Assembly (NCBI GenBank): GCA_003151975.1
Contig: PLZD01000010.1
Span: 62,001 to 126,000, forward strand
Source: Elusimicrobiota bacterium
GTDB lineage: Bacteria; Elusimicrobiota; Elusimicrobia; UBA1565; UBA9628
Length of the DNA: 64,000 bases
Direction of reading: 5' to 3'
In this document: positions 17,489 through 53,711 of the stretch, piece after piece
Position numbering within the stretch: the first letter of the stretch is position 1
How the letters are laid out: each line of letters begins with the position of its first letter
Notes under the pieces: model-generated
Databases searched by the model: none
What the model was told of the DNA's origin: nothing
Seen by the model: the letters and a program-made list of their open reading frames with translations, nothing else
Program-made: the position numbers and the translations under genes

Positions 17489-18441
17489 TGGCCGCCCTCG
17501 TCCGGCGTGGAATCTTCGATCAAGAAGCGCGGGCGGCGGCGGGCCTCGTCGAGCGCGCGCCACAGATACTCTCCGAGCACTCCCATCATGGCCCACTGCA
17601 TGCCGCTGACCATCAGAAGTAGGGCCGCGAAGCGACTCCAGCCCTCGCCCAGCGTGGAGAGATCCGGGTTGAGGAGCTCCCAGGCAAGCCAAATGCCGCC
17701 CGCGAGCATCGAGAGAAGGCCGAGGGCCGAGATCAGGCGCATGGGCTGATACGAGAAAGAGACGATGGAGTCGAGCGCGAGCTTGAGCTTCTTCTCGAGG
17801 CTCCAGCCTGATTCCCCGTGCAGGCGGGCCTTCTTGTCGTAGACGACGCCGGTCTGCTTGAAGCCCATCCACGTGATCATCGCGAACACGCTGAAGTGGT
17901 TCTCGTGGAACTGGCGCAGGGCCTCGGCCACGCGCCGGTCCAGCAGTAGGAAGTCGGCGCCTTCGGCCGGCATATCTTTGAGGCCGACGAAGCGGCGCAT
18001 CATGAAATAGTAAAGCCGCGACATGAACAGAGACCCGGCGCCGACGCCCTCGCGTTTGGAGCGCACGGCCCAGACGACCTTGAAGCCTTCCTTCCACTTT
18101 GCGAGCAGTTCCGGTACGACTTCGGGAGGATCCTGGAGGTCGGCCGCCATGACGACGGCGCACGCGCCTTTCATTCGCTCGAGGCCGCAAAGAATTGCGC
18201 GGTGCGAGCCGAAGTTGCGCGTGAAGCGCACGCCCCGGACCCGAGGGTCCTTGGCCGCCAGATCCGACAAAACCTTAAAGGTCTCGTCGCGCGAGTGGTC
18301 GTCGATGACGATCCACTCCCACTTCGCGGCGCCATCGAGTTCCGCGACGAGCTTCTCGTAAAGGAGCGGAAGGTTCTTCTCCTCGTTGAAGGCGGGCGTG
18401 ACGATGGAAAGCTCGGGAGCGGGGCTAGACGCGCGCTTCAT
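17485..18441 (-). CDS. GT2 bactoprenol glycosyltransferase (GtrB/ArnC-like)
   Basis: This is a 318-residue enzyme with a GT-A domain: IVTPAFNEEKN near 13-23, VIDDHSRDET near 45-54 and DLQDPP at 101-106, which holds the metal-binding acidic motif typical of polyprenyl-phosphate glycosyltransferases. Two C-terminal transmembrane helices (about 229-250 and 267-290) match the GtrB/ArnC/DPM-like architecture. Such proteins charge undecaprenyl phosphate with one sugar for later transfer by a GT-C enzyme in the periplasm. The TMTC-like GT-C protein at the end of the same operon is a plausible user. That pairing is inference. Confidence 0.85.
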   Translation of the reverse strand: MKRASSPAPELSIVTPAFNEEKNLPLLYEKLVAELDGAAKWEWIVIDDHSRDETFKVLSDLAAKDPRVRGVRFTRNFGSHRAILCGLERMKGACAVVMAADLQDPPEVVPELLAKWKEGFKVVWAVRSKREGVGAGSLFMSRLYYFMMRRFVGLKDMPAEGADFLLLDRRVAEALRQFHENHFSVFAMITWMGFKQTGVVYDKKARLHGESGWSLEKKLKLALDSIVSFSYQPMRLISALGLLSMLAGGIWLAWELLNPDLSTLGEGWSRFAALLLMVSGMQWAMMGVLGEYLWRALDEARRRPRFLIEDSTPDEGGQ

Positions 18442-20932
18442 GAGGTATCAGCTCCTCCAAAGCGGCGGCGACCCGCGCTTGGTCTTCTTCGGTCATGCCG
18501 GGGAAAAGGGGCAGGATGAGGCAGCGCTCGCGGGCGATTTCGCTTTCCTTGAGTCGCGAGCAGCGGTCTCCGGGGCATTCGCAGCGCGTCTCATCAGCGT
18601 AGCACGACCAAGGCTCGGAGGCGTAAGCGGGTTCGAGGTGCGCGCACATGATGCCGGGCCGCGTGTCGACGCCGCGCCCGCGCAGCTGCGCCTGCAGCCG
18701 GTCGCGGTCGACGCCGTCGGGCAAACGAACGCAGTAGCTCTGCCAGTTGCTGCGCGCCCACGCGGGCTCGTGCGGCAGGCCGAGGCCCGCGACGCGGCCG
18801 AGGATTTTCGCGTAGCGCTCGGCCAAACTTCTGCGCTCTGCGACGAGACCAGCCAGGCGCTTGAGCTGCTCGCGGCCGACGGCGGCCTGGATGTCGGTCA
18901 GGCGATAGTTGTAGCCGAGCACGGGATAGGTCTCGATCGAAGGCGCGCCGGCCTTGTCGCGCGAGGCGGCGTCCATGCTCATGCCGTGGTGGCGCCAAAG
19001 GCGGAACTTGGCGTCGAAATCTTTATTGGACGTGGTGAGCATGCCGCCGTCGCCGGTGGTCAAGACTTTTCTCGGGTGGAACGAGAAGCAGGCGATATCG
19101 CCGAAGGGCTTGCCGATTTTTTCCCACTGGCCATTAACCTTGATCTCGGAGCCCGCGGCGCAGGCGGCGTCCTCGACGAGCGGGATCTTCTTGGTCTTGG
19201 CGAGTTTGGTGAGCGCGGCGAGATCGCAGGGCATGCCCATCTGATGCACGGCGAGAATCGCCTTCGTCTTGGGGCCGATCAGCGGCGCGATTTTCGCGGG
19301 ATCGATGTTGTAGGTGCCGGGCTCGATGTCGCAGAAGATCGGAACGGCCCCGCAGTAGCGCACGGCATTGGCCGTCGCGATGAAAGAGTGGCTGACGGTG
19401 ACGACCTCGTCGCCGGGGCCGACGCCGACGGCCTTGAGCGCCAGATGCAGCGCCGTCGTGCCGCTCGACACTGCGCAAGCGTACGGTGCGCCGACGAATT
19501 TGGCGAACTCCGTTTCGAAGGCGGCGACCTGCGGGCCCTGCGTCACCCAGCCGCTCGAGACCGCGGCGGCGGCGGCGTTGGCTTCTTCCGCGCCGAGCGC
19601 GGGGCGGGCCAGCGGAAGTTTTTTGAGCTTCGGTTTCGCGTGCGTGCCGGACGCCCGGCCGATGCCCAGATAAAAGAGTCCGGCGGCGCGCGCCTCTTTG
19701 GCGTCCCAGAGATTGCGGCCATCGACGACGGCCTTCAAGCCCGCTTTGGCGAGCTTCTTGAAATCGAGCTTGGCGTAGGGCTTGTGGGCGGTATTGAGAA
19801 CGATCACCTCGGCGTCCTCAATAACGCCGGGCGTGAAGCCGTGGGCCTTGATCTCATCGTCCGAGTAGAGCGGGTCGTGCAGGAAAGTTTTGGCGCCGCG
19901 CGCGGCGAGCGCGTCTTTGAGCAGGTAGGCCGTCGAGCAGGCGTCTTCCTTGACCTCGGGGCGAAAGCCCAGGCCCAGGATCAAGACGCGGCGGCCGGGG
20001 AGCGGCGCCCACTCGCGCTCGAGACGGTCGAGAGCCTTGGCGCTCTGCGCGTCGTTGACGAATCTCGCGCGTTCCGAGAGGGACTGCGGCGCGCCGCGCC
20101 GTCTGGCGTCATTGTTGAGAAAATAGGGATAGACCGGCGTGCAGTGTCCGCCGACGCCGATGCCCGGAGAGAGCAGCGCGCTCTCGCCGTCGGTGTTGGC
20201 CGCCGCGATGACGGAGGCAAGGTCGACGCCTATCAGCTCGGCGTAGCGCGCCAGCTCGTTGGCCAGCGCGATGTTGACGTCGCGGTAAACCATGCCCGCA
20301 AGTTTCGCGAGTTCGGCTGATTCTAGAGAACCAAGGTTGTTTGCCGGTGCGCCGAGAAATTGAGAATAGAACTCCGAGGCGCGCTTGGCGCAGGCCGGGG
20401 TCAGGCCTCCGACGATCTTGGGATTCTTCTCGAGATGCTCGAAGACCTTGCGGCTCTTGACGCGTTCGGGGGAAAACGCGAGGTGGAAATCTTTTCCGGC
20501 GGCAAGCCCGGACTCTTCGAGCAGAGGCTTGAGCGCCGCGCGCGTCGTGCCGACGGGCAAGGTCGTCTCGAAACTGACGAGTGCGCCCTTCTTTAAGCCT
20601 TTGGCGATCTCGCGCGCCGCGGACGAAATCAGCGACAGGTCGGCCTCGCGGGCGGCGGTCAGCAGAACGGGAACGATGACGACGATGACATCGGATTTGG
20701 CCGCGGCCTCGGAAATCTTCGTCGTGGCCTTGAGCCGTCCGGCTTTTACTGTTTCCGCGATCGCCTCGGGCAGGCCGGGCTCGTCGACCGGAGATTTGCC
20801 CGCGTTGATGGCGTCGACGACCTTTGGGTTGATGTCGCAGGCGAGCACGTCCGCGCCGCGGCGCGCGAATTGGCAGGCCAAGGGCAAGCCCATCTTGCCC
20901 GCGCCGACGACGGCGACTGTGATCTTGTTCAT
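18425..20932 (-). CDS. fusion: nucleotide-sugar 6-dehydrogenase (WbpA/WecC-like) + DegT aminotransferase (WbpE-like)
   Basis: This is an 835-residue single reading frame from the ATG at 20932, which overlaps the epimerase stop as ATGA. Residues 1-425 are a UDP-sugar dehydrogenase: GAGKMG at 10-15 binds NAD, and the GVGGHC block ends in catalytic Cys264. A short Lys/Pro linker (about 427-440) leads to an aminotransferase (about 440-835) with SSGTTALHL near 489, Asp588 and Schiff-base Lys622 (HPRKVLTTG). Near 790 is a Cys-rich insert (CYADETRCECPGDRC) that could bind metal. In the known Wbp pathway WbpA oxidises C6 of UDP-GlcNAc and WbpE aminates C3, with WbpB acting between them. A WbpB-like gene is three genes upstream. 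The same operon contains the other steps. Confidence 0.88.
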   Translation of the reverse strand: MNKITVAVVGAGKMGLPLACQFARRGADVLACDINPKVVDAINAGKSPVDEPGLPEAIAETVKAGRLKATTKISEAAAKSDVIVVIVPVLLTAAREADLSLISSAAREIAKGLKKGALVSFETTLPVGTTRAALKPLLEESGLAAGKDFHLAFSPERVKSRKVFEHLEKNPKIVGGLTPACAKRASEFYSQFLGAPANNLGSLESAELAKLAGMVYRDVNIALANELARYAELIGVDLASVIAAANTDGESALLSPGIGVGGHCTPVYPYFLNNDARRRGAPQSLSERARFVNDAQSAKALDRLEREWAPLPGRRVLILGLGFRPEVKEDACSTAYLLKDALAARGAKTFLHDPLYSDDEIKAHGFTPGVIEDAEVIVLNTAHKPYAKLDFKKLAKAGLKAVVDGRNLWDAKEARAAGLFYLGIGRASGTHAKPKLKKLPLARPALGAEEANAAAAAVSSGWVTQGPQVAAFETEFAKFVGAPYACAVSSGTTALHLALKAVGVGPGDEVVTVSHSFIATANAVRYCGAVPIFCDIEPGTYNIDPAKIAPLIGPKTKAILAVHQMGMPCDLAALTKLAKTKKIPLVEDAACAAGSEIKVNGQWEKIGKPFGDIACFSFHPRKVLTTGDGGMLTTSNKDFDAKFRLWRHHGMSMDAASRDKAGAPSIETYPVLGYNYRLTDIQAAVGREQLKRLAGLVAERRSLAERYAKILGRVAGLGLPHEPAWARSNWQSYCVRLPDGVDRDRLQAQLRGRGVDTRPGIMCAHLEPAYASEPWSCYADETRCECPGDRCSRLKESEIARERCLILPLFPGMTEEDQARVAAALEELIPHEARV

Positions 20933-21888
20933 TTTACGGCGGCGGTCAATTGGCTGCGGTGCCACTCCAAAGTTTCAGTCAGGCCTTGCTCGAGGTCGAC
21001 CTTGGGCTCCCAGGCGAGAAGCCGCCGGGCCTTGTCGATGACCGGCACGCGCGCGCGCACTTCGGCGCGCACGACGTCCTTGTGCTTGATCTCGGAGCCA
21101 GGAGAGAGGCGCGCCACGCGCCGGGCCAGGCCCAAGGTCGTCTCGACCTCGCGCGGGTTGCCGATGTTGAAATCTTGCCCTGCGGCCTCTTTGCGCGTCA
21201 GGCACGCCACGGCCGCGTCGACGAAATCGGAGACGTAGCACCACGCGCGCAGCGGCGTGCCGTCGCCGTAGACGGTGATCGGCTTGCCCGAGAGGACCGC
21301 GGAGCAGAAATTGGCGACGGCGCCTTCGCCGGTCTGGCGCGGGCCGTAGACGTTGAAGGGCCGCAGGATGGTGCAGGCCATGTTGTGAGCCTCGCCCATG
21401 CGCATGACGAACTGCTCGCCAGCGAGCTTGCTGGTGGCGTACACCCAGCGCTTGTCCGAGACGCCGCCGATCTTGTGGCCCGCGAGCTCGTCGACCCACA
21501 GCGCGTCGGGGCCGAAGACCTCGGAGGTCGAGGCGTAAATGAATTTCTTAACGCCCGAAGCCGCCGCCGCCTCGAGCATATTGACTGTGCCGAGCAGGTT
21601 GACGCGCAAAGTCTCGAGCGGCCGCTCGTAATAGCTCGAGACGCCCGCGATCGCGGCCAGATGGATGACGGACTCCACGCCCGAGAGCGCCTTGTCGATG
21701 GATTTTCGGTCGAGCACGTCGCCGTTGAGGAAGCTCACGTTGCGGTGTTCCTTGAGCTCCGGTATGTGCGCCAGCGAATTGCGGCGCAGATTGTCGAGCA
21801 GGACGAGTTTGTTCTTGGGGCACAGACGCTCGGCGATGTGCGTGCCGATAAAACCCGCGCCGCCGGTGATCAGAATTTTTCCGTTCAT
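20929..21888 (-). CDS. NAD-dependent nucleotide-sugar epimerase/dehydratase
   Basis: This is a 319-residue extended SDR. GGAGFIG (9-15) binds NAD; catalytic ASTSEVFG near 119-126 and YATSK (Tyr150, Lys154) are intact; NVYGPRQ and a C-terminal GWxP-like AWEP block fit UDP-hexose 4-epimerases and 4,6-dehydratases. Context places it with a WbpB-like oxidoreductase, an acetyltransferase and a dehydrogenase-aminotransferase fusion, so it probably shapes the same UDP-sugar. Whether it epimerises or dehydrates cannot be read from sequence. It overlaps both neighbours by 4 bp. Confidence 0.85.
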   Translation of the reverse strand: MNGKILITGGAGFIGTHIAERLCPKNKLVLLDNLRRNSLAHIPELKEHRNVSFLNGDVLDRKSIDKALSGVESVIHLAAIAGVSSYYERPLETLRVNLLGTVNMLEAAAASGVKKFIYASTSEVFGPDALWVDELAGHKIGGVSDKRWVYATSKLAGEQFVMRMGEAHNMACTILRPFNVYGPRQTGEGAVANFCSAVLSGKPITVYGDGTPLRAWCYVSDFVDAAVACLTRKEAAGQDFNIGNPREVETTLGLARRVARLSPGSEIKHKDVVRAEVRARVPVIDKARRLLAWEPKVDLEQGLTETLEWHRSQLTAAVK

Positions 21889-32523: not shown

Positions 32524-33501
32524 TTAGAGCCCGCGCGCGCGCAGGTCGTGGATCTGCACGAGGCCGATCGGGCGGCGGCGCGCGTCCACGACGGGCAGCA
32601 CGCTGAAGGGGGTCTTGCGGTCCTCCATGACCTCGACGGCGGAGGCCGCGAGCGCCTCGGGCCGGATGGTGGTCGGGCGCGGGTTCATGATGCTGCGAAT
32701 CGACAGCGAAAGAATGTTTTTGCCGCTCTGCAGGGCGCGGCGGATGTCGTAGTCGGTGACAAGTCCCGCGAATTTCCCGCGCGCGTCGACGATGCAGACG
32801 GCACCCGCCTGCAAGCGCGTCATTTCTGCGAGCAGCTCGCTGACGGTGGCTTTGAGCCCCACCACGGGATTGGACTCGCCGCTGCGCATGATGTCGGCGA
32901 CCTTGAGCGTCAGCCGCCGGCCCAGGCGTCCGCCGGGATGGTTGCGCGCGAAATGGGCCGTCTTAAAGCCCTTGAGCTTCATGAGTGCTACGGCAAGAGC
33001 ATCTCCTACGGCCAACGCAGCCGTTGTACTACACGTCGGGGCGAGATTGAGAGGGCAGGCCTCGTCGTCGATGGGCGTCACGAGGACTAGGCCCGCCGCG
33101 CGCGCCAAGGTCGACTTTGGATTAGCCGTGATCGCGATGATCTGAGCGCCGACGTTGCGGATCGCGGGGAGCAGGTGATTGAGCTCATCGGACTCGCCGG
33201 ATTTTCCGATGGCGACGATGAGGTCGTCGCGCTGGATGAAGCCCAGGCCTCCGTGCATGGCCTCGCTCGGATCAAGATGCGCCGCGGGAGTCCCGGTCGA
33301 CGAGAAAGTCGCCGCGATTTTCTGGGCGATCAGGCCCGACTTGCCCACGCCGGTCAGCACGACCTTGCCGCGGCATTTTGAAAGCCACTCGACGGCCTGA
33401 GCGTACGAGCCGTCCACGGCGCGGCCGACCTTGCGCAGGGCGCTGGTCTCGAGGTCGATGACCCGACGGATTTCCTTGAGCGTCTGAGCGCGTCTAGACA
33501 T
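32524..33501 (-). CDS. kpsF: KpsF/GutQ-type arabinose-5-phosphate isomerase (Kdo pathway)
   Basis: This is a 325-residue protein from the ATG at 33501, overlapping legB by 8 bp. The SIS domain (about 30-180) has TGVGKSGLIAQK at 50-61 and AIGKSGESDEL at 97-107, the phosphosugar-binding loops of KdsD/KpsF/GutQ. The C-terminal half is a CBS pair (IMRSGESNP, LVTDYDIRRAL, VQIHDL), the normal length and order for the family. It interconverts ribulose-5-phosphate and arabinose-5-phosphate, the first step to Kdo. Its place in a capsule/O-antigen operon resembles KpsF in group 2 capsule loci. It may be a dedicated second copy. Confidence 0.9.
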   Translation of the reverse strand: MSRRAQTLKEIRRVIDLETSALRKVGRAVDGSYAQAVEWLSKCRGKVVLTGVGKSGLIAQKIAATFSSTGTPAAHLDPSEAMHGGLGFIQRDDLIVAIGKSGESDELNHLLPAIRNVGAQIIAITANPKSTLARAAGLVLVTPIDDEACPLNLAPTCSTTAALAVGDALAVALMKLKGFKTAHFARNHPGGRLGRRLTLKVADIMRSGESNPVVGLKATVSELLAEMTRLQAGAVCIVDARGKFAGLVTDYDIRRALQSGKNILSLSIRSIMNPRPTTIRPEALAASAVEVMEDRKTPFSVLPVVDARRRPIGLVQIHDLRARGL

Positions 33502-34492
33502 TGTAGAGAGCGTCCTTGTATTGCCCGCGGTGCCGCTCGACGTGGCCGATCGTGGCGGCAAGACCCCGCTCGAGGCTGACTTGCGGCTTCCAGCCGGTCA
33601 ATTTCTTGATCTTGCGGTTGCCGCACACGAGCTTGAAGACTTCGCTTGCTTGCGGCCGCAAGCGTTTGGAATCGAGAGCGATCTTGCAGCGGCTCTTCGT
33701 GATCTTCATGATTTGGCGTGCGGTCTCACCGATGGTCACACCGCGGCCGGAGCCGATGTTGACGACCTCGCCGATCGTGCGGGGAGACTGCGCGATCGCC
33801 AGGAAGCCCGCGACGGTGTCGGTGACATAGTTGAAGTCGCGTACCGGCGTCACGGAACCGAGTTTGATCTCCGCCCGGCCCGAAAGAGCCTGGCTGATGA
33901 CTGTCGGGATCACGGCGCGCGCCGATTGCCGCGGGCCGTAGGCGTTGAAGGGACGGGCGACCGCGACCGGAAGCCGGAACGAGCGGTGAAAGCTCTCGGC
34001 GAGCTTGTCGGCCCCGATCTTGGACGCCGAATAAGGCGATTGGCCCTGCAAAGGATGGTTCTCGTCGATCGGGGTATAGAGCGCCGTGCCGTAAACCTCG
34101 GAGGTCGAGGTGTGCACGAGCTTGCGCACGCCGCGCGAGCGGCAGGCCTCGAGCACGTTGAGAGTCCCGCCAATGTTGGTCGCGACGTACGAGCTGGGCG
34201 CTATGTAGGAATATGGAATCGCGATGAGCGCCGCGAGGTGAAAAACGACCTCTTGGTCCTTGGCGAGCTCGCTCACGTAAAATGGATCGGTGATGTCGCC
34301 CGACCAGACGTCGACGCGGGGCTTGAGTTCCTTGCTCAGATCCTCGAGAAAGCCCCAATGGCTGCGCGAGTTATAGCGCACCAAAGCGCGGACTTTGGCG
34401 CCGCGGCGAGCGAGTTCCTCGGTGAGATGGCTGCCGATGAAGCCGCCGGCGCCCGTGACGAGGACGCGCACTCCTTTCCAGTTCTTTGCCAC
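33494..34492 (-). CDS. legB: LegB-type nucleotide-sugar 4,6-dehydratase
   Basis: This is a 332-residue extended SDR, taking the GTG at 34492 as start. That sets the NAD motif GAGGFIG at residues 14-20 and gives a length normal for the family; a start at 34549 would overlap the regulator gene by 47 bp. FHLAALIAIPYSY, HTSTSEVYGTA, HPLQGQSPYSASKIGADKL (catalytic Tyr154, Lys158), RPFNAYGPRQSARAVIPT and KLGSVTPVRDFNYV are the hallmark blocks of the LegB (TIGR04180-type) dehydratases of the legionaminic acid pathway. The substrate in Campylobacter is GDP-GlcNAc. It is 13 kb from the rest of the leg genes but under the same type of promoter-operator. Confidence 0.9.
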   Translation of the reverse strand: MAKNWKGVRVLVTGAGGFIGSHLTEELARRGAKVRALVRYNSRSHWGFLEDLSKELKPRVDVWSGDITDPFYVSELAKDQEVVFHLAALIAIPYSYIAPSSYVATNIGGTLNVLEACRSRGVRKLVHTSTSEVYGTALYTPIDENHPLQGQSPYSASKIGADKLAESFHRSFRLPVAVARPFNAYGPRQSARAVIPTVISQALSGRAEIKLGSVTPVRDFNYVTDTVAGFLAIAQSPRTIGEVVNIGSGRGVTIGETARQIMKITKSRCKIALDSKRLRPQASEVFKLVCGNRKIKKLTGWKPQVSLERGLAATIGHVERHRGQYKDALYNV

Positions 34493-34502
34493 TGAGGAGA
34501 TT

Positions 34503-35063
34503 CTAGGAGATTCGGAAGTCGATGTTGTCGAAATCGACGAGGCCGACAAAACGCCGTCCGTGGGCGCTGCGCGGCGGACCCTGGAGGGTCGCGGTCAGAA
34601 CGAGATCGGCCTCGGACGGGACTTGTTCGAGGCGGTCGTAGTACGAGAACTGGGCGTCGGGGAAGGCCAGGCCCGCGATGGCCTCACGCAGCAGCGCCGA
34701 GATCTCATCCTGCGAGACGATATGAAAATGGCGTCTTCCGGCGTCGTACTCGCGGCGCAGGAGGGTGGTGATGTTGTCCTGAATTTGGCGGAACAGGCGG
34801 ATCGTGTAGACGGTGTAGTGGTAGGCCTTATGCGTCTTCTCCATGGCCCCCTTGATCGTCAGCAGATACTGCGTGCGCTTCCAGTCGAGCTGGGTGACCT
34901 TGATGTAGCCTTTGCGGGCCAGGCGCTGGATCAAGAGATTTGTCGTGCCCAAGGAGAGCCCGACGCTTTGGGAGAGGCTGCGCTGGGTGTGCGTGGGCTT
35001 TCGCGAGATTTCCTGGATCAGTGCGAACTCCTTCTGGGCCAGGTGGCCGCCGTCGGTGTTCAT
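34503..35063 (-). CDS. MarR-type EPS-associated transcriptional regulator with an extra C-terminal domain
   Basis: This is a 186-residue protein from the ATG at 35063, which has GAGG nine bases upstream; the ATG at 35078 would have almost no leader and no ribosome site. Residues 12-75 form a winged helix: TQRSLSQSVGLSLGTTN is the recognition helix region and ARKGYIKV the wing. This is the pattern of the MarR-type regulators linked to exopolysaccharide clusters (TIGR04176-like). Those proteins are about 100 residues; here about 90 more (95-186) form an alpha/beta domain of unknown type that could sense a ligand. The gene follows one copy of the GTTCA-N5-TGAAC operator and opens the third operon, so autoregulation is likely. 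Confidence 0.82.
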   Translation of the reverse strand: MNTDGGHLAQKEFALIQEISRKPTHTQRSLSQSVGLSLGTTNLLIQRLARKGYIKVTQLDWKRTQYLLTIKGAMEKTHKAYHYTVYTIRLFRQIQDNITTLLRREYDAGRRHFHIVSQDEISALLREAIAGLAFPDAQFSYYDRLEQVPSEADLVLTATLQGPPRSAHGRRFVGLVDFDNIDFRIS

Positions 35064-35078
35064 CGTGTCATGCCTCAT

Positions 35079-35103
35079 TGTTCAAATAATGAACATTGTA
35101 TCA
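35079..35103 (-). promoter_or_regulatory. composite promoter-operator, copy C (regulator operon)
   Basis: Minus strand: TG-A-TACAAT (35103-35095), then without a gap the inverted repeat GTTCA (35094-35090), five bases, TGAAC (35084-35080). The outer T/A pair extends the arms to six. The TG of the extended -10 is part of the TGA stop of the upstream methyltransferase. No consensus -35 is visible. The predicted RNA start (about 35088) lies inside the repeat, so a bound protein would block initiation. Confidence 0.82.
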
Positions 35104-40668: not shown

Positions 40669-41838
40669 TTAGCGCAAGACCGCGCGCACGGCGTCGATCA
40701 CGTCGGCGGCGTCCTCGTCGGTGAGCTTGGGCGAAAGCGGCAGGGAGAGGGTCCTCTCCGAGATGAACTCGGCGTTGGGAAAATCGCCGGGCTTGCAGCC
40801 GAGAAGCTTTCGGTAGTACGGCTGAAGATGGCAGGCGATGTAATGAACCCCGGTGCCGATGTTGAGCTTGGTGAGCTCATTGAGGACTTGGTCGCGCGAT
40901 TTGCCGAGGCGGTCGACATCGATGTGCGGCGTGAAGAGGTGGTAGGCGTGGCGCGTGTCCTTCTCGGGCGCGGGCGGCAAGAAAGCGGGCAAGCCGGAGA
41001 AAGCCTCCATGTAGCGATTCCAAAGGACCTCGCGGCGCTTCCAGTAGCGGTCGACGCGCGGGAGTTGGTGGATGCCGAGAGCGGCGGCCATGTCGGTCAT
41101 GTTGTACTTGAAGCCCGCGTAGACGACCTCGTAATGCTTGTAGCCGTCGTCGGAGAAGCGCTTCCAGGCGTCCTTGCTCATCCCGTGCAGCGCGAGAATC
41201 TTGATCTTGTCGGCGTACTCGGAATCGTTGGTCAGCACCATGCCGCCTTCGGCCGTGGTAATGTTTTTGGTCACGTAGAAGCTCAGCGCGCCGAACTCGC
41301 CGAAGGTGCCGGCCTTCTTGCCGTGGTACTCGGTCTCGACGGCGTGCGCGCAGTCCTCGACCAGCGCGAGCTTGTGTTTCTTGGCGATCGCGGTCAGCGC
41401 GTCCATGTCGCACGAGCGTCCGGCGAAATGCACGGGCAGGATGGCGCGAGTTTTCTTAGTGATTTTCTTGGCGACGAGCTCCGGGTCGATGTTTTGCGTC
41501 TGCCGGTCGCAGTCGACCATCACGGGCCTGGCGCCCGCGTGCAGGATGGCGTTCAGTGTCGCGCAGAAAGTCATCGGCGTCGTGATGACCTCGTCGCCGG
41601 GCTTAAGGTCGAGCGCCAAAAGTGAAAGGTGCAGGGCCGCGGTCGCCGAGTTGACCGCGACGGCGTGCTTGACGCCTTTGTACTTGCCGACCATCTCCTC
41701 GAATTTCTTGACCTTGGGGCCGGTGCCGATCCAGCCCGAGCGGAGGGTGTCGACGACTTCCTGGATCTCGGCTTCCTCTATAAGGGGGCTGCCGAAGACG
41801 AGGAAATCCTTGCGAATCTTGGGGGTTTGAGCCTTCAT
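40669..41838 (-). CDS. DegT/ArnB-like sugar aminotransferase, first gene of operon
   Basis: This is a 389-residue PLP enzyme. FGSPLIEEAEIQEVVDTL and SGWIGTGPKVKKFE are the N-terminal blocks of ArnB/PglE-type C4 aminotransferases. VNSATAALHL binds phosphate, and Asp162 (LVEDCAHAV) and Lys191 (YVTKNITTAEGG) are catalytic. Among the six aminotransferases of the window this one is most like C4-transaminases of 4-keto-6-deoxy sugars. It starts the middle operon directly after copy B of the promoter-operator, with a leader of only about 11 bases. Confidence 0.88.
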   Translation of the reverse strand: MKAQTPKIRKDFLVFGSPLIEEAEIQEVVDTLRSGWIGTGPKVKKFEEMVGKYKGVKHAVAVNSATAALHLSLLALDLKPGDEVITTPMTFCATLNAILHAGARPVMVDCDRQTQNIDPELVAKKITKKTRAILPVHFAGRSCDMDALTAIAKKHKLALVEDCAHAVETEYHGKKAGTFGEFGALSFYVTKNITTAEGGMVLTNDSEYADKIKILALHGMSKDAWKRFSDDGYKHYEVVYAGFKYNMTDMAAALGIHQLPRVDRYWKRREVLWNRYMEAFSGLPAFLPPAPEKDTRHAYHLFTPHIDVDRLGKSRDQVLNELTKLNIGTGVHYIACHLQPYYRKLLGCKPGDFPNAEFISERTLSLPLSPKLTDEDAADVIDAVRAVLR

Positions 41839-41840
41839 AC

Positions 41841-41864
41841 GTTCAGAATATGAACATTATAGCA
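41841..41864 (-). promoter_or_regulatory. composite promoter-operator, copy B (middle operon)
   Basis: Minus strand: TG-C-TATAAT (41864-41856), immediately followed by GTTCA (41855-41851), five bases, TGAAC (41845-41841). The TATAAT contains the TAA stop of the upstream rfbG gene, so the promoter is embedded in the end of that gene. No consensus -35; its place is taken by another inverted repeat (41861-41882). Confidence 0.82.
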
Positions 41865-46481: not shown

Positions 46482-47959
46482 GGGGAAAGGGCGAAAAGGA
46501 AGTCGGCGATCCGTTGGTCGATCTTCCCGTCGGGAGGAATGTGGCGCTCGCGCGCGACCTCAGGAGGCACATCGAGCTCTAGAGCCAGCGCCGCGAGCAC
46601 GGCGCGCTCGAAGTTGGCGTAGCTTGCGGTCTCGTCGTAAAGCTGAAAGCGGGGATCGAGACTCAGAATCTGGCAGGGATCGCCGGCGCAGTTGACGAAG
46701 AGCGTTTTCTTGCCGCGGCCGACGAAAAAAGCCTCGTAGCCGATCGTCGAGTTGAAGCACAACACAAGACGCGAACGGGCGATGCTTTCGTAGCTTTCGC
46801 CGCGGCCCTCGTTGCTGAGAATCTCTATGGCGGGCGAGAAAAGCGCGCGCGCGCGGCCGACGACATGATCGCGGACTTCGGTGTTGGCGCCGTAAGGCCT
46901 CAGCTGGAAGGCGGCGCGGAGCTCCGGGTGCTTCTCGACGAGCGCTGTCAGATTGCGGAAGACGGTCTCGAACGAGGTCCCGATTTTCTCGCCGAGGTCG
47001 CTCAGTGGCCAGAGTCCTTGATCGATGAGCAGAATGTCGTAGCGCACGGGCTCTTGGCTGCGCCTTAGCTCTTCGAGTCTCTTGAAATGCCGATCGAGGT
47101 TCAAGGCGCCAACCGGCTCGACGCGGGCCGCGCGCACCTTGAGCGCGCGGCAGAGCTTTTCGGTGTAGGAGCCGAACGCGAGGTAGTCGTCGACCATGCC
47201 GAAGGCGAAGGCGGGGTGATAAAGTCTTTCTCCGTTCTGCAGGACGACCAGGCGTCCACGGCAGCTTTGCTTGAAGGCTAGATAGCGCGACGGGTGGTTC
47301 TGCTCGTCAGAGGAGGTCACGAAGTGGCGGCAAGGGTAGCGCCTGAAGTGGCCATCGAACACGGCGTATAGGCTTAACGCCCGGCGATAGGCGGCAAGAA
47401 TGTTCTGTCCGCTTCGGCGCGAGAGACGCCACAACGAGAGCGCCCACATAGGCGCGGCGAAAAGTTTTAGAAGAATCGACGGTGCGATCGTGCTCGTAAG
47501 ATGCTCGACTTCCGGCCAGCCGGCGGGGCTCGGCCCATGGCTGGGGCTCATGCGTTTGGAACCAGGCAAGCGTTCGTAGATGCGGCGAAACCAGAATTCG
47601 AAATGATTTTGGTCGATAGCTTCGAAGTCGAAGTCGACCATGGACTGTTTGCGCCACAAGACGCGCTTGGTCAGCAGGAAGTTGAGCGGGTGCAGCACGA
47701 GCTTGATGAATGAAGCGGTGAGGTTCTCTTCGCGCCCTGGCCGCTCGGGACGGCTGTCGCAATAAATCTTGGCCATGAGCTGCGCGAGCTCGTCCTCGCC
47801 GCAGCCGGTGAAGCTTTTGAGGTAGCGGAACGGCGCGTCATCGCGATGTTCGCGGGCGAATTGTTCGGCGTCCTCGACGAAGTTCAGACGAGGATCGTCG
47901 ATGGGGGGCCGAGCTGAGTCTGGCAAGGTCGTCGTCATGCGGTCCGTCGCGCCGCTCAT
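46472..47959 (-). CDS. putative surface-glycan transferase of unknown family
   Basis: This is a 495-residue soluble protein from the ATG at 47959, which overlaps legC as ATGA. The C-terminal half has GT-B-like features: VLQNGERLYHPAFA, YDILLIDQGLWPLSD, FQLRPYGANTEV, and LVLCFNSTIGYEAFFVGRGKKTLFV (quoted as CFNSTIGYEAFFVGRGKK). The last resembles the nucleotide-binding edge of CDP-glycerol/sialyl-type transferases, in which a Ser/Thr and Glu contact the donor. I cannot place it in a named family. It sits between legC and the LIC12162-family gene, so a nonulosonyl- or related transferase is possible. Confidence 0.6.
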   Translation of the reverse strand: MSGATDRMTTTLPDSARPPIDDPRLNFVEDAEQFAREHRDDAPFRYLKSFTGCGEDELAQLMAKIYCDSRPERPGREENLTASFIKLVLHPLNFLLTKRVLWRKQSMVDFDFEAIDQNHFEFWFRRIYERLPGSKRMSPSHGPSPAGWPEVEHLTSTIAPSILLKLFAAPMWALSLWRLSRRSGQNILAAYRRALSLYAVFDGHFRRYPCRHFVTSSDEQNHPSRYLAFKQSCRGRLVVLQNGERLYHPAFAFGMVDDYLAFGSYTEKLCRALKVRAARVEPVGALNLDRHFKRLEELRRSQEPVRYDILLIDQGLWPLSDLGEKIGTSFETVFRNLTALVEKHPELRAAFQLRPYGANTEVRDHVVGRARALFSPAIEILSNEGRGESYESIARSRLVLCFNSTIGYEAFFVGRGKKTLFVNCAGDPCQILSLDPRFQLYDETASYANFERAVLAALALELDVPPEVARERHIPPDGKIDQRIADFLFALSPCS

Positions 47960-49107
47960 GCGCTTGCGATGACGCCGGCGACCGCGGCGATGTCGTCCTT
48001 GGTCAGCGACGCGCTTGAGGGGATGTTGAAGGACGTGCTCCAGAGCTTCCGGGTGACGGGAAGGTTCTCGCGCGGGAATTTCGCCAGCGGTTTTTGCAGG
48101 TGGCAGGGTCCCCAAATCGGGCGGCTGGCGAGTTTCTTCTCGTTGAGTCTCCTTAGGAGAGTTTGTGCTCGCTTGGGAGTGTCGGCGATCACCGTGTTGA
48201 GCCAGAAATTACCGCGAGCGCCTTCGGGCTCCCAAAGAAGCCGCACTCCGGCGACGCCTTTGAGCGCCGCGCGATACCAGGCCGCGATGCGGCGCTTCTG
48301 CTCGACGAATCTGTCGAGCTGCTCGAGCTGGGCGAGGCCGAGGGCCGCGTTGATGTTGGGCAGCCGGAAGTTGTAACCGACCGCGTCGTGCCAAAAGGCC
48401 CCCGCGTCGGACTTTGCCTGGGTCGAGAGGTGCTTGGCTCGGGTCGCGAGCTTCTCGTCGTCGGTCAAGATCATGCCGCCGCCGCCGGTAGTGATGATCT
48501 TGTTGCCGTTGAAGCTCAAGACCCCGAGCCGTCCAAAGGTCCCCAGCGCCTTGCCGCGGTACAGCGAGCCCACGGCCTCGGCGGCGTCCTCGACGATGGG
48601 AACGCCGAACTCACGGCAGACCGAAAGCAGGCGCTCGAGGCGAACGGGATGGCCGAAGGCGTGCATCGGCACGCAGGCGGCGATGCGCCGGCCGCTCTTG
48701 CGGTCGACGAGTTTTTTCCCCGCGCGGCGGCAGTTGGTCTTAAGGTAGCGCTCCACGGCGTCGGGATCGAGTCCGAACGTCGCTTCCTCGACGTCGATGA
48801 AATGGGGCGCAGCTCCGCGATAAATCACTGCGTTTGCTGTGGCGATAAAGCTCAGGCTTGGGACGAGAACCTCGTCGCCGGGACCGACGCCGGCGAGCTC
48901 AAGCGCCAGCTGGAGCGCCGCGGTCCCGTTGACCACGGCCACAGCAAATCGCGCGCCGCACGCCTGGGCGGTCTTGCGCTCGAAGAGGTCTACGAACCGG
49001 CCGGCCGTCGAGACCCAGCCCGTGTCGAGGCACTCCTTGACGTATTTCCACTCGTTGCCGGCAAACGAGGGCTCGTGCGTCGAGTAGATAGGCTTGGTGC
49101 TTTTCAT
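47956..49107 (-). CDS. legC: LegC-type aminotransferase of the legionaminic acid pathway
   Basis: This is a 383-residue PLP enzyme. STHEPSFAGNEWKYVKECLD, TGWVSTAGRFVDLFE, ARFAVAVVNGTAALQLAL, FGHPV, EDAAEAVGSLYRGK (Asp174) and LSFNGNKIITTGGGGMIL (Lys203) are the hallmark sequence of the LegC (TIGR04181-type) family. It aminates C4 of the 4-keto-6-deoxy nucleotide sugar produced by LegB. It is downstream of ptmE (4-bp overlap) in the same operon. The high agreement along the whole length leaves little doubt about the family. Confidence 0.94.
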   Translation of the reverse strand: MKSTKPIYSTHEPSFAGNEWKYVKECLDTGWVSTAGRFVDLFERKTAQACGARFAVAVVNGTAALQLALELAGVGPGDEVLVPSLSFIATANAVIYRGAAPHFIDVEEATFGLDPDAVERYLKTNCRRAGKKLVDRKSGRRIAACVPMHAFGHPVRLERLLSVCREFGVPIVEDAAEAVGSLYRGKALGTFGRLGVLSFNGNKIITTGGGGMILTDDEKLATRAKHLSTQAKSDAGAFWHDAVGYNFRLPNINAALGLAQLEQLDRFVEQKRRIAAWYRAALKGVAGVRLLWEPEGARGNFWLNTVIADTPKRAQTLLRRLNEKKLASRPIWGPCHLQKPLAKFPRENLPVTRKLWSTSFNIPSSASLTKDDIAAVAGVIASA

Positions 49108-50183
49108 GCGTTATCGGAGAGGGCTTCGAACTCGCCGTTGGCGCGCTCGAATTCCTTGTGGCCGCCGATATCAAGCCAATATTCCTGGATGGGAAAGCAC
49201 GCGACGCCGTCCTTGCGGCGCTTGCGGATCGCGGAGATGAATTCGGGCATGTCGCAGCGACGGTTCCTCGGCAGCCAGCGCAGGGTCTTGGGCTCGACGA
49301 CGTAGATGCCGGCGTTGACGAGCCAGCGCTGGACGGGTTTCTCAACGAAGGCCTCGAGGCGGTGTTCGTTGAGCTCCACGACGCCGTAGGGCACCTGAAT
49401 TTCGTGGTGCTTGACGCAGAGCGTGGCGAGCGCTTGTTCCGTCTTGTGGAAATCGAGCAATGCCGCGAAGTTGACCTTGGTCAGAATGTCGCCGTTGACG
49501 ACGAGCAGCGGATCCTTTAGGTGCCGGGCGGGCACCAAGCGCAGCGCGCCTGCCGTTCCGAGAGGCTTCTCCTCGGCGACATAGTCGATCTCGACGCCCC
49601 AGCGGCTGCCGTCGCCGAAATGCCGCTCGATCTGCTCGGCGAGATAGTTGACCGTGAAAACGAAGTGGCCGAAGCCCGAGGAAATGAGCTGCTCAAGCAG
49701 GTGCTCGAGGATAGGCTTGTCGCCCAGGCGCAGCATCGGCTTCGGCGTGTTCTCGGTCAGGGGGAGCAGCCGCTTGCCGTAGCCTCCCGCCATGACGACG
49801 ATCCGGTTGGGAAAGCGTTTGGGGATCAGGGCGTAGTCGACCATCGCCGCCAGGCCTTTGAGGCGGCCTCGGCGATCGACGATCGGGATGTGCGCTCGAG
49901 GCCGCTCGCGAAACGCGTTGCTGATCTGCTCGGGCGTCATCTCGTCGGAAACGGTGACGGGCTTGGGGTTCATGACCTCGCTGACCGGGCAATCGAGATT
50001 CTTTCCCGCCAGCAGCGCCTTGCGTACGTCGATGTCGGTGATGATGCCGAGCAGGCGCCGCTCCTTGTCGACGACGAGCGCCGCCGAGAAGCGTACTTCG
50101 GTCATGACCTTCATCGCCGCGCGCAGCTTCGCCGTCGGCGGCATCGCGATCTGAGGATGCTTCTTCAAAAGGTCCGAAGACAT
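49104..50183 (-). CDS. ptmE: PtmE-like hexosamine-1-phosphate guanylyltransferase with CBS pair
   Basis: This is a 359-residue protein in two parts. A CBS pair at about 1-120 (ALVVDKERRLLGIITDIDVRKAL and HIPIVDRRGRLKGL, seen as GIITDIDVRKAL and HIPIVDRRG) precedes a nucleotidyltransferase at about 125-355 with MAGGYGKRLLPLTENTPKPM and VNGDILTKVNF. This is the architecture of PtmE, which in Campylobacter makes the GDP-hexosamine used for legionaminic acid. Nucleotide specificity (GTP) is from the family and context, not seen directly. It is flanked by legH and legC with one- and four-base overlaps. Confidence 0.88.
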   Translation of the reverse strand: MSSDLLKKHPQIAMPPTAKLRAAMKVMTEVRFSAALVVDKERRLLGIITDIDVRKALLAGKNLDCPVSEVMNPKPVTVSDEMTPEQISNAFRERPRAHIPIVDRRGRLKGLAAMVDYALIPKRFPNRIVVMAGGYGKRLLPLTENTPKPMLRLGDKPILEHLLEQLISSGFGHFVFTVNYLAEQIERHFGDGSRWGVEIDYVAEEKPLGTAGALRLVPARHLKDPLLVVNGDILTKVNFAALLDFHKTEQALATLCVKHHEIQVPYGVVELNEHRLEAFVEKPVQRWLVNAGIYVVEPKTLRWLPRNRRCDMPEFISAIRKRRKDGVACFPIQEYWLDIGGHKEFERANGEFEALSDNA

Positions 50184-50821
50184 TAGGCCCGCTCTCCTGT
50201 CACGCGCATACCGCGCGCTTTGGCGCCGGCCGGAACGTCCTTATGGACGACGGAGCCAGCACCTATGTGCGCGCCGTCGCCGATCTTGATGCCTGGCAGT
50301 ACGATCGCGCCGGCGCCGATGAAGACGCCCTCGCCCAGCCGCGCGTCGCCGCAGAGGATGGCGCCCGGGCCGATGAAGCCGTGAGCGCCGACGACGCAGT
50401 CGTGCTCGACGATGGCGGACGTGTTGACCACGGTGTTGGCGCCGATGGACGCGCCGGGATGCACGACGGCGTTGGTGAGTAGTTGGCAGCCCGCGCCGAG
50501 CTTGACCGACTCGGAGCAGTGCGCCGATTTCGCTTTCACGGGAGGGAAATTGTGGCCTGTCGCTGCGAGCTTCTCAAAAAGCGCGCGCCGCGCGTTTGTC
50601 GAGTTCGCGCCGCCCACGCCGTTGGCGAGCGCGACCGACCCCGGGGCGTGGTCCTTGAGCGCTTCATCGCCGCCGAGCACGCGAGCGCCGTCGACGATCT
50701 TGCCCTTGAGCGCGGGGTTGGGGTCGAGGCAGCCCAGGATGGAGGCGCCCGAGGACTTGAGAGCGTCGATGACCACGCGCGCGTGGCCGCCGGCGCCGAG
50801 CACGATGTAGTTCTTAGTCAT
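50183..50821 (-). CDS. legH: NeuD/PglD-family sugar acetyltransferase (LegH role)
   Basis: This is a 212-residue protein. A Rossmann-like N-terminal domain ([17 protein letters not shown] at 5-21) leads to a beta-helix with [27 protein letters not shown] (shown as [19 protein letters not shown]). The HDC motif holds the catalytic His of PglD/NeuD enzymes. [21 protein letters not shown] and [10 protein letters not shown] form the C-terminal coils. In the legionaminic pathway the LegH step acetylates the 4-amine formed by LegC. Pathway position is inferred from neighbours; the family assignment is clear. Confidence 0.87.
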
Positions 50822-51971
50822 GAAATTTTTTCCTCAGGAGCGGCTCGCCGAGCGGGATCGTTTTGAGGACGCCGATCATGCTTTGCGCCGTCCGCCCCTC
50901 GCCGTAGGGATTCTTGCCGGTGCATTGCGCGCGAAACGCGCGCGACAGGGCACGGTTGATAGCCTTTGAGATCGCGGGCGCCGTGCCTGGGCAGTCGATG
51001 ACCGAGGACGCGCGCAAGCGGCCCGCTTGGCGGTCGCCGATGTTGACCGTGGGGCGCTTGAGGCTCGGCGTTTCGATAATGCCGCTCGAGGAATTTCCCA
51101 CGACGACGTCGCACAGCCGCATGAGGCTGAGATAACCCTGCTGGCCCAACGAGGCGACGGCGGTCGCCCGCCCTTTGCGGCGCGCGACATAAGCGTCGAC
51201 ACGGCGGTTGAGCGCGCGGCCTCCGGCGTCGGCGTTGGCGTACGTGAACACCGTGCGCAGGCCCGATTTGTCGAGTGCGCTCAGCAGCGCGTCTAGCGTC
51301 TTGTCGGGTTTTCCGTTTCGCGAGAGCGAAGCCGGGTGCAGGGTCGCTAGCGCGATCGGCGAGGACAGCTTCATTCCTAAACGCTTTTCGAGCGCGCCGC
51401 GATCGAGGAACTTCGCGCGCCGGATGTATTCGAGTCCGGGCGCGCCGGTGTTAAAAACCCGCCACGGTTCTTCGCCCATGCGGATCAGCCGGCGCCGGTA
51501 CGGCTCGGCGGCGGCAAAATGCAAATGCGAAAGCTTGCTGAGCGCGTGGCGGACCTGCTCGTCGAGTACGCCCTCGGAGGATTCGCCGCCGTGGATGTGC
51601 GCGATCGGCACGCGCAGGGCGACGGCCGCGGCGGCCGCGGCGAGCAGTTCGATGCGGTCGCCGAGAACCACGAGGATGTCGGGCTGAAGTTTAGCGAGCG
51701 CTGCGGCAAAACCGGCGGTGCCGCGCGAGACGGCGCGCGCGGCCTCCAATGCCGAGTCGTCCTTGGCCAGCATCGGCACCAGGGCCGCGGGCGAAAAGCC
51801 GTCCTTGCGGATCTGCGTCACCGTGCGGCCGAAATCTTTCGAGAGGTGCGAGCCGGTGGCGATGAGCTGGAGCTTGAGCGCGCGGTCGTGCTTGATGCCG
51901 TCGAGCAGCCAGTAGAGCAGGCCGTAGTCGGCGCGCGAGGTGGTCAGGACCGCGATCTTGCGCCGCTTCAT
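50814..51971 (-). CDS. legG: LegG/NeuC-type hydrolysing NDP-sugar 2-epimerase
   Basis: This is a 385-residue enzyme of the UDP-GlcNAc 2-epimerase fold. [16 protein letters not shown] near 8-23, [24 protein letters not shown] (about 145), and [23 protein letters not shown] (seen as [12 protein letters not shown]) are classic NeuC/LegG signatures. The enzyme hydrolyses the NDP-diacetamido sugar, releasing a 2,4-diacetamido-trideoxy-mannose for the synthase. It overlaps the fused legF-legI gene as ATGA and legH by 8 bp. Confidence 0.93.
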
Positions 51972-53674
51972 CGCGAGATCATGTCCCAGGTCAGCACGCC
52001 GTCCTCTCTGACCGCTTTACTGAGCGCGCGCCCGATCAGGCCGTCGAGCTCGGCGGGCGCGATTCCCGTGCCGGGGCGCTTGGCCGAGAGGTCCGCGCGC
52101 GCGAGCACGTGCCCTTCGGAGAGGTCCCGGGCGGCGACCAGGCTCCGCCTGGCGACCTTGCGGTTGGCCGCCTCGCAGGGTGCGACCGTCTTGATCCCGT
52201 CGCCGACCGCGGATTCGACGAGGCGCACGCCGTTTACTAGCGCCGCCAATTCGCTTGGCAAAAGAGAAGCCTTGTGATCCGGGCCGGGAAGCTCGCGGTC
52301 GAGCGTGAAGTGCTTCTCGATGACGCAGGCGCCGCGCGCGGCGGCGGCGAGCGCGACCTCGATGCCCAAGGTGTGGTCGGAGTAGCCTGCGGGCAGGGCG
52401 AAGGCCTCGCGCAGAGTGTCCATCGCGGCGAGATTGGCTTCATCGGCGGGCGCCGGGTACTCGCTGACGCATTGCAGCAAAGTCAGCGGCGCCTCCGAGA
52501 CCTCACGGATCCAGCCCACGGCGTCGGCGACCTCGGAGAGCTCGCTCATGCCCGTCGACAGGATCAGCGGCCGGCCTTTGCGCGCGACGTGCTGGAGCAG
52601 GGCTTTGTTGGTGATCTCGCCGGAGGGAAGCTTGAACAAGGACACTCCGAGCTTGTCGAGCAGGTCGGCGCTGCCCTCGTCGAACGGGGTGGAAAGAAAC
52701 AAGATGCCTTCCTTCTCGCAGCGCTCCTTTATAAGGCGGTGGGCTTTCCAATCGAGCTCGAGCCGCGCGAGCATTTCTGTTTGCGAGGCGTCGGAGGTTT
52801 TCTGGTAGTCGGCCTTTGGCGCGCCCTTGGAGGCCAGTCGGTCGGCCTTGAAAGTCTGAAACTTGACGGCGTCGGCCCCCGCGTTCTTGGCGGCCGAGAC
52901 CATCGCGAGCGCGCGCTCGACGCTGCCGTTGTGGTTGACGCCCGCCTCGGCGATGATGAAGACGGGAGAGCGCTTGGCATTGGCCGGCTCGCGGCGCAGC
53001 AGCGCTTGCGCGCGGGCCCAATCCAGCGGCGTGTCGACGTCGACGGCTTCCTCGGGCGGGATGATCAGCGCGCGCTCGTCGGGGCCGCGGAACGAGCGGC
53101 GCTTGAGCAAATCCTGGCGCGAGACGAGGAAGATCGACCCCTCGAGCGCGTAGGCCGGCGGCAATTTTTGGCGCGGCGGCGGGCTCTTGATCTGCGGCAA
53201 GAAAGGGGAGAGCCGGCCGGTTTTCTTATCGACGCGGCAGCACCAGTAAGGATGACTCGGAGCCGTGGTCACCGACACCACGCCGCGGCGATTTTTCTTG
53301 AATAGGGAGACGGCCTTTCGGATCGTGGCGGCGGTGCGAAAGGGCGAGGTGGGCGCGAGCAAGAGGACCGCGTCGGGGCGGTAGCCCTCTTCGTTCTCTA
53401 GGCGCTTAAGCAGGTGCACGGCGGTGTCGGCGATGGGGGAGTCGTCTTTGGCCAGCGCCTTGGGCCTCAGCCAGGGGACTTCGACGCCGTGGCGGCGGGC
53501 CACCGCGGCTATTTTCGGGTCATCGGTGCTGACCCAGAGCCGGTCGAGGCAGGCGGCTTGGCGCGCGGTCATGATGGCGCGGCCCAGCAACGGAATCCCG
53601 CCGAGCGGCTCGATGTTTTTGCCCGGAAGGCCCTTGGAGCCTCCGCGGGCGGCGATGAGGCCGAGTATCTTCAT
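51968..53674 (-). CDS. fusion: CMP-nonulosonate synthetase (LegF) + nonulosonate synthase (LegI)
   Basis: This is a 568-residue single frame. Residues 1-225 are a CMP-sugar synthetase: IAARGGSKGLPGKN at 7-20, LLLAPTSPFR, and VDVDTPLDW (211-219), all required signatures. After about 10 linker residues, residues 238-500 are a NeuB-type synthase with IIAEAGVNHNGS (240-251), KFQTFKADRL, STPFDEGSADLL, KLPSGEITN, LSTGMS and CVSEYPAP. Residues about 505-568 are the SAF domain. The synthase condenses phosphoenolpyruvate with the six-carbon sugar from LegG, and the other half activates the product with CTP. Having the last two steps in one chain is unusual and implies product handover. It opens the operon under copy A. 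Confidence 0.92.
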   Translation of the reverse strand: MKILGLIAARGGSKGLPGKNIEPLGGIPLLGRAIMTARQAACLDRLWVSTDDPKIAAVARRHGVEVPWLRPKALAKDDSPIADTAVHLLKRLENEEGYRPDAVLLLAPTSPFRTAATIRKAVSLFKKNRRGVVSVTTAPSHPYWCCRVDKKTGRLSPFLPQIKSPPPRQKLPPAYALEGSIFLVSRQDLLKRRSFRGPDERALIIPPEEAVDVDTPLDWARAQALLRREPANAKRSPVFIIAEAGVNHNGSVERALAMVSAAKNAGADAVKFQTFKADRLASKGAPKADYQKTSDASQTEMLARLELDWKAHRLIKERCEKEGILFLSTPFDEGSADLLDKLGVSLFKLPSGEITNKALLQHVARKGRPLILSTGMSELSEVADAVGWIREVSEAPLTLLQCVSEYPAPADEANLAAMDTLREAFALPAGYSDHTLGIEVALAAAARGACVIEKHFTLDRELPGPDHKASLLPSELAALVNGVRLVESAVGDGIKTVAPCEAANRKVARRSLVAARDLSEGHVLARADLSAKRPGTGIAPAELDGLIGRALSKAVREDGVLTWDMISR

Positions 53675-53686
53675 GCTGTCAGAGGA

Positions 53687-53711
53687 TGTTCAAAGATTGA
53701 ACATTATACCA
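53687..53711 (-). promoter_or_regulatory. composite promoter-operator, copy A (leg operon)
   Basis: Minus strand: TG-G-TATAAT (53711-53703), then directly GTTCA (53702-53698), five bases, TGAAC (53692-53688); outer T/A extend the arms to TGTTCA/TGAACA. The predicted RNA start near 53696 lies within the repeat, with about 22 bases of leader to the ATG at 53674. It shares TGnTAYAATGTTCA with copies B and C. A plus-strand TATAAT begins 27 bp to the right. Confidence 0.85.

Follow-up and report, generated by a model that had tools for sequence, protein, structure and literature searches.

Among the surface-polysaccharide genes of an Elusimicrobiota genome lies a gene for a MarR-type regulator, which follows a copy of a short inverted repeat and encodes additional residues after its DNA-binding domain. 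Which promoters would this regulator read, and what would its C-terminal part contribute? By "the window" we mean the whole stretch of 64,000 nucleotides that was analysed.

The regulator gene and its operator

The regulator gene and its promoter have the following features.

34503..35063, minus strand: regulator coding sequence, 186 aa plus stop, with the ATG at 35063
ATG at 35078, minus strand: alternative regulator start, which would yield 191 aa
34857..35039, minus strand: winged helix-turn-helix of the regulator, residues 9-69
34743..34856, minus strand: long helix of the regulator, residues 70-107 (AlphaFold2), with a probable role in dimerisation
35080..35094, minus strand: operator copy of the regulator gene, GTTCATTATTTGAAC, an exact GTTCA-N5-TGAAC
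35095..35100, minus strand: -10 box TACAAT of the regulator, flanked by the operator and by the stop codon that ends the upstream gene (35101-35103)

A sequence-only reading had predicted autorepression from an operator at the regulator's own gene. The geometry supports this prediction, with GTTCA-N5-TGAAC placed directly after the -10 box. The -35 of this promoter is weak by eye. The upstream, methyltransferase-like gene ends in a stop codon that is directly followed by the -10 box (35095-35103). This places the regulator promoter inside an extended series of genes on one strand, and transcription may also read through it.

Exact copies of GTTCA-N5-TGAAC are found in the window at 35080, 41841 and 53688 only. 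All three are 2-16 bp from the start codon and, on the coding strand, directly 3' of TACAAT or TATAAT. A search of the window with two mismatches gave 17 sites versus 14.5 expected, which is the chance level; the signal in the window is the three exact sites.

The whole genome (4.64 Mb) has nine exact sites, compared with one for the reversed control. A -10-like hexamer adjoins six of the nine and none in the reversed control. These six sites are on one contig and all have the same orientation. They precede the regulator, the DegT aminotransferase, the LegF-NeuB fusion, pseB, a PglK/MsbA-type ABC transporter and a GalE-like epimerase. The other three exact sites (C26:145795, C34:36580 and C55:193224) lack such a hexamer and were regarded as chance occurrences.

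The regulator is present once in this genome. It had been called the only regulator of the window, and a scan of about 40 window ORFs, the 1878-aa ORF at 6448-12084 excepted, revealed no second DNA-binding regulator.

Genes under the operators

The other two operators of the window and the genes of the predicted regulon are as follows.

41841..41855, minus strand: operator copy before the DegT aminotransferase, with -10 TATAAT at 41856-41861
40669..41838, minus strand: DegT/PseC-like aminotransferase, the first gene under the 41841 operator
53688..53702, minus strand: operator copy before the LegF-NeuB fusion operon, with -10 TATAAT at 53703-53708
51968..53674, minus strand: fusion of a cytidylyltransferase (LegF/NeuA type) with NeuB, 568 aa (TIGR03569, 436.5 bits, cut-off 399.65; PseF, 127.6 bits)
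47956..51971, minus strand: NeuC/LegG, NeuD/LegH, CBS-nucleotidyltransferase and LegC, in the same run as the LegF-NeuB fusion
33494..34477, minus strand: legB-like 4,6-dehydratase, directly downstream of the regulator (TIGR04180, 467.6 bits, cut-off 475)
32524..33561, minus strand: KpsF/GutQ-type sugar-phosphate isomerase, after the legB-like gene (TIGR00393, 287 bits, above cut-off)

NeuB, NeuC, NeuD and LegC exceed their curated cut-offs, and LegB is slightly under its own. Judged by these profile matches, the genes under the operators encode a near-complete putative pathway of the legionaminic-acid type. Elsewhere in the window, one ORF (18425-20965) fuses a UDP-glucose dehydrogenase with a DegT aminotransferase.

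In other genomes, the first genes under such operators include those for NeuB, WbuX, a PseG/PseH-like protein, PseC, HisF/WbuZ and a Wzz-like protein. The operons headed by the regulator vary as well: leg genes in L068, pse genes in L078, and KpsF-DegT in L062, L065, L067 and L071. The targets are mostly nonulosonic-acid and other nucleotide-sugar genes. NeuB is present in 28 of 37 genomes with the regulator and in 64 of 258 without it, a difference that genome size may confound, and it is absent from 9 of the 37.

Coupling of operator and regulator across genomes

For a survey of 295 Elusimicrobiota genomes, we defined the promoter-operator unit as TANNNT-GTTCA-N5-TGAAC. The regulator was found in 37 genomes and the unit also in 37. 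The two coincide closely, with the unit in 33 of the 37 regulator-positive genomes and in only 4 of the 258 regulator-negative ones (Fisher p 7e-35, uncorrected for kinship). The exact unit is absent from four regulator-positive genomes. This association supports the earlier suggestion that one regulator would read all three sites of the window.

Homologues with the C-terminal extension were collected from Elusimicrobiota, Omnitrophota, Spirochaetota and metagenome-assembled genomes labelled Aerophobetes and Clostridia, labels that may be wrong. Of 36 extended homologues, 33 have an operator with at most one mismatch in the 260 bp upstream, and the remaining three have no nearby site. A motif-blind scan of 16,384 dyads (1024 five-base half-sites x 16 spacings) was led by GTTCA-N5 and its register shifts, in 29 of 36 extended homologues. 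The same dyad leads the scan in all six Spirochaete extended homologues and in 17 of 27 short Spirochaetota members. In Chelatococcus (Alphaproteobacteria), two exact operator copies lie upstream of a 235-aa homologue.

The operator half-sites are nearly invariant. In 92 distinct units, not all of them independent, the interior of the -10 box reads TAA at the positions that the search left free, and a TTGACA-like -35, which the search did not require, is common, mostly at 17 bp.

Family placement of the regulator

The regulator shares its winged helix with TIGR04176, whose short members have a similar recognition helix (mostly SLG-x-x-N) and, like the regulator, occur in surface-polysaccharide clusters. 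A TIGR04176 member of Sulfitobacter faviae, for example, precedes legB-legC-neuC. The recognition-helix motif of the regulator is SLG-x-T-N (S37, L38, G39 and N42) and is common to most short relatives. Unlike TIGR04176 members, the regulator has an alpha/beta module.

TIGR04176 matches the regulator with 50.7 bits (E 1.5e-13), below its curated cut-off of 88, and none of 18 relatives reached that cut-off. The match spans residues 16-107 of the 191-aa form, after which about 80 residues remain; the 186-aa regulator is thus much longer than the model of about 105 positions, which covers a winged helix and a C-terminal helix. HTH_24 scored 38.8 bits, above its cut-off of 21.9, and PF01047 scored 24.1 bits against a cut-off of 24.6. 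A tree built on the shared winged helix plus the start of the long helix split extended and short rows with support 99/96. Many other forks were unresolved because the alignment has 96 columns, and the Chelatococcus row formed a long branch. Since score, length and grouping all set the regulator apart from TIGR04176, we file it in a putative sister clade with an added domain, which would work in a MarR_EPS-like way and has the operator in common with the family.

In its predicted structure, the regulator has the winged-helix fold of the broad MarR superfamily. The fold matches E. coli MarR (3voe) with Z 13.3 and rmsd 1.2 over 77 residues, and FabT (6jbx, with DNA) is the top match both by sequence and by Foldseek. 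The alignments to MarR-superfamily structures (3voe, 6jbx, and PcaV 4fht) mostly end around residue 85-95, and none of these structures convincingly covers the C-terminal module.

In the literature searched, we found no experimental paper on TIGR04176, nothing that links legionaminic acid to a MarR-type transcriptional repressor, and nothing on nonulosonic acid in Elusimicrobiota. Two papers name an EPS-associated MarR, only in passing (PMC10599003, PMC8007912).

The operator in short relatives without the extension

Co-occurrence of the extension with the operator had also been raised as a question. It is borne out in the extended homologues, but the half-sites are not specific to the extension because short relatives share them. 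Among 27 short Spirochaetota members of TIGR04176, searched with at most one mismatch, the N5 form was found in 20 and an N4 form in two. A single short member from Aliarcobacter has the N5 form with one mismatch. Short MarR_EPS members on Rhodobacterales plasmids (L144-L152) have the N4 form in nine of nine cases, six of them exact. In these Rhodobacterales, GTTCA-N4-TGAAC precedes the start codon by about 80-105 bp, with half-sites one bp closer than those in the window. A search of a phage collection for short TIGR04176-type members found none.

The Rhodobacterales sites prompted the idea that N5 belongs to extended and N4 to short proteins. It was rejected since the short Spirochaetota members mostly have N5.

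Because TIGR04176 relatives without the extension use the same half-sites, the operator is a property of the superfamily, and the extension would not be the part that reads it. The simplest reading is that the operator predates the gain or loss of the extension. For TIGR04176, a named but uncharacterised family, there is now a DNA word to look for in any genome, which makes its regulons predictable from sequence. These would include genes for legionaminic acid, pseudaminic acid, capsule and export in phyla where genetic tools are scarce or lacking.

The C-terminal module

Two features belong to this part of the protein.

34506..34739, minus strand: C-terminal alpha/beta module, residues 109-186 (AlphaFold2)
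34704..34715, minus strand: conserved turn (G/A/S)-x-x-E of the module, residues 117-120, linking its strand 1 to helix 1

The additional residues had been described from their letters as what looked like an alpha/beta domain. AlphaFold2, run with 36 sequences, modelled the whole regulator with a mean pLDDT of 90 and agrees with that description: a winged helix (3-68) and a helix (70-107) are followed by a strand (112-117), a helix (119-130) and later strands at 138-142, 154-158 and 171-174. Folded alone, the module retained this layout with a pLDDT of 82, the last residues being poor. We are therefore confident, on the strength of these models, that the module would be an ordered alpha/beta domain and not a disordered tail.

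The module is the least conserved part of the regulator, with a mean information of 1.77 bits versus 2.93 for the winged helix. Its conserved points are G109 and E120 (each in 33 of 36 homologues) and F113. In the 295 Elusimicrobiota genomes, every match to a module profile coincides with the regulator, and 36 of the 37 regulator-positive genomes have such a match.

There was no significant match to the module in Pfam, PDB sequences or PDB folds, and with the 36-row alignment no match to a Pfam family rose above noise. Because winged helices filled the fold search with the whole model, the module was modelled and searched by itself. Its best Foldseek match was then a sugar N-formyltransferase (E 0.19), and VIA-align against PDB gave a Z of at most 6.0; we regard both values as uninformative. 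CggR was rejected as a domain match, its Z of 13.4 being accompanied by an rmsd of 13.6. The C-terminal domain of the Chelatococcus homologue aligns in register with the module near G-x-x-E (hhalign E 0.0016, probability 16 percent) and has a weak match to CoA_binding_3 (E 0.034, below cut-off). No member of the 36-row alignment matched CoA_binding_3 or PglD-type Rossmann domains. Assignment as a PglD/NeuD-type domain was rejected, as the window's own NeuD shows no match to the module.

A mechanism for the regulator

We propose, with a probability of roughly 0.8, that the regulator is an autorepressor of surface-glycan genes, acting as a dimer on the palindrome after the -10 box of its own and other promoters, with possible tuning by a ligand. 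The long helix that follows the winged helix would hold the dimer together. It would read the palindrome TGTTCAA-N3-TTGAACA, just downstream of the -10 box and over the expected transcription start, and would block RNA polymerase at every promoter with the promoter-operator unit, its own included. Steric repression fits because the site directly follows the -10 box, and autorepression fits because the operator precedes the regulator gene. We infer binding, dimerisation and repression by the regulator; autorepression and the reading of all three window sites are strongly supported. The least certain step is the last one, in which the module would tune repression through a small molecule. That molecule would more likely be a common surface-sugar intermediate than one end product, which is likewise among the least certain points.

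Two departures from the repressor scheme are very improbable. The regulator might be an activator, as MarR-like proteins can act as activators, but activator sites are normally upstream of -35, and in most units the site comes immediately after the -10 box and covers the expected start, which is a repressor position. We give equally little credence to the MarR-like gene being a passenger, with GTTCA-N5-TGAAC read by another, unlinked regulator or serving as a 5' RNA hairpin. The sequence would indeed place the dyad at the start of the mRNA as well, but the unit tracks the presence of the regulator (33/37 versus 4/258) and the operator lies upstream of the regulator gene in several phyla.

The alternatives for the module are closer. 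It could be a structural or oligomerisation add-on, or a contact for a partner, with no sensing, so that the autoregulated protein level alone sets repression. This has somewhat less than an even chance. It agrees with the same operator in short relatives without the module, with the divergence of the module and with fold and family searches that found no ligand binder. It does not sit well with the retention of the module in 36 of the 37 regulator-positive genomes, or with the conserved (G/A)-x-x-E turn closing strand 1, which is the ligand-binding position of Rossmann-like folds. Alternatively, the module could be a sensor dedicated to one pathway sugar such as CMP-legionaminic acid, giving end-product feedback. 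The near-complete legionaminic-type pathway in its own regulon, the leg operon headed by the regulator in L068 and the enrichment of NeuB with the regulator (28/37 versus 64/258) point that way. We consider it improbable, because the operons headed by the regulator vary, with pseudaminic (L078) or KpsF-DegT genes (L062, L065, L067 and L071) in other homologues, and NeuB is missing from 9 of the 37 regulator-positive genomes.

More tentatively than the add-on, the module might be a sensor domain of a kind not described before and confined to this clade, which would gauge a common surface-sugar intermediate and loosen or tighten repression of the nonulosonic-acid and glycan regulon; this doubtful estimate is a joint one and includes an operator unchanged across Elusimicrobiota, Spirochaetota and other phyla. 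The role of the module is directly testable because proteins that have it and proteins that lack it read the same operator, and the promoter geometry is conserved. A comparison of operator readers with and without the module would reveal its contribution.

Unusual arrangements of the unit

In L060 (9932-9974), two back-to-back operator units drive the regulator gene and, in the opposite direction, a gene for a WbuX-like amidotransferase. At units with a distance of -6 (L053:6441, L104:186, L122, L123, L124 and L133), the target genes seemingly start inside the operator, with ATGAAC or TTGAAC. With start codons in this position, and provided that the usual sigma-70 spacing applies, the mRNAs of these targets would have no leader or almost none.
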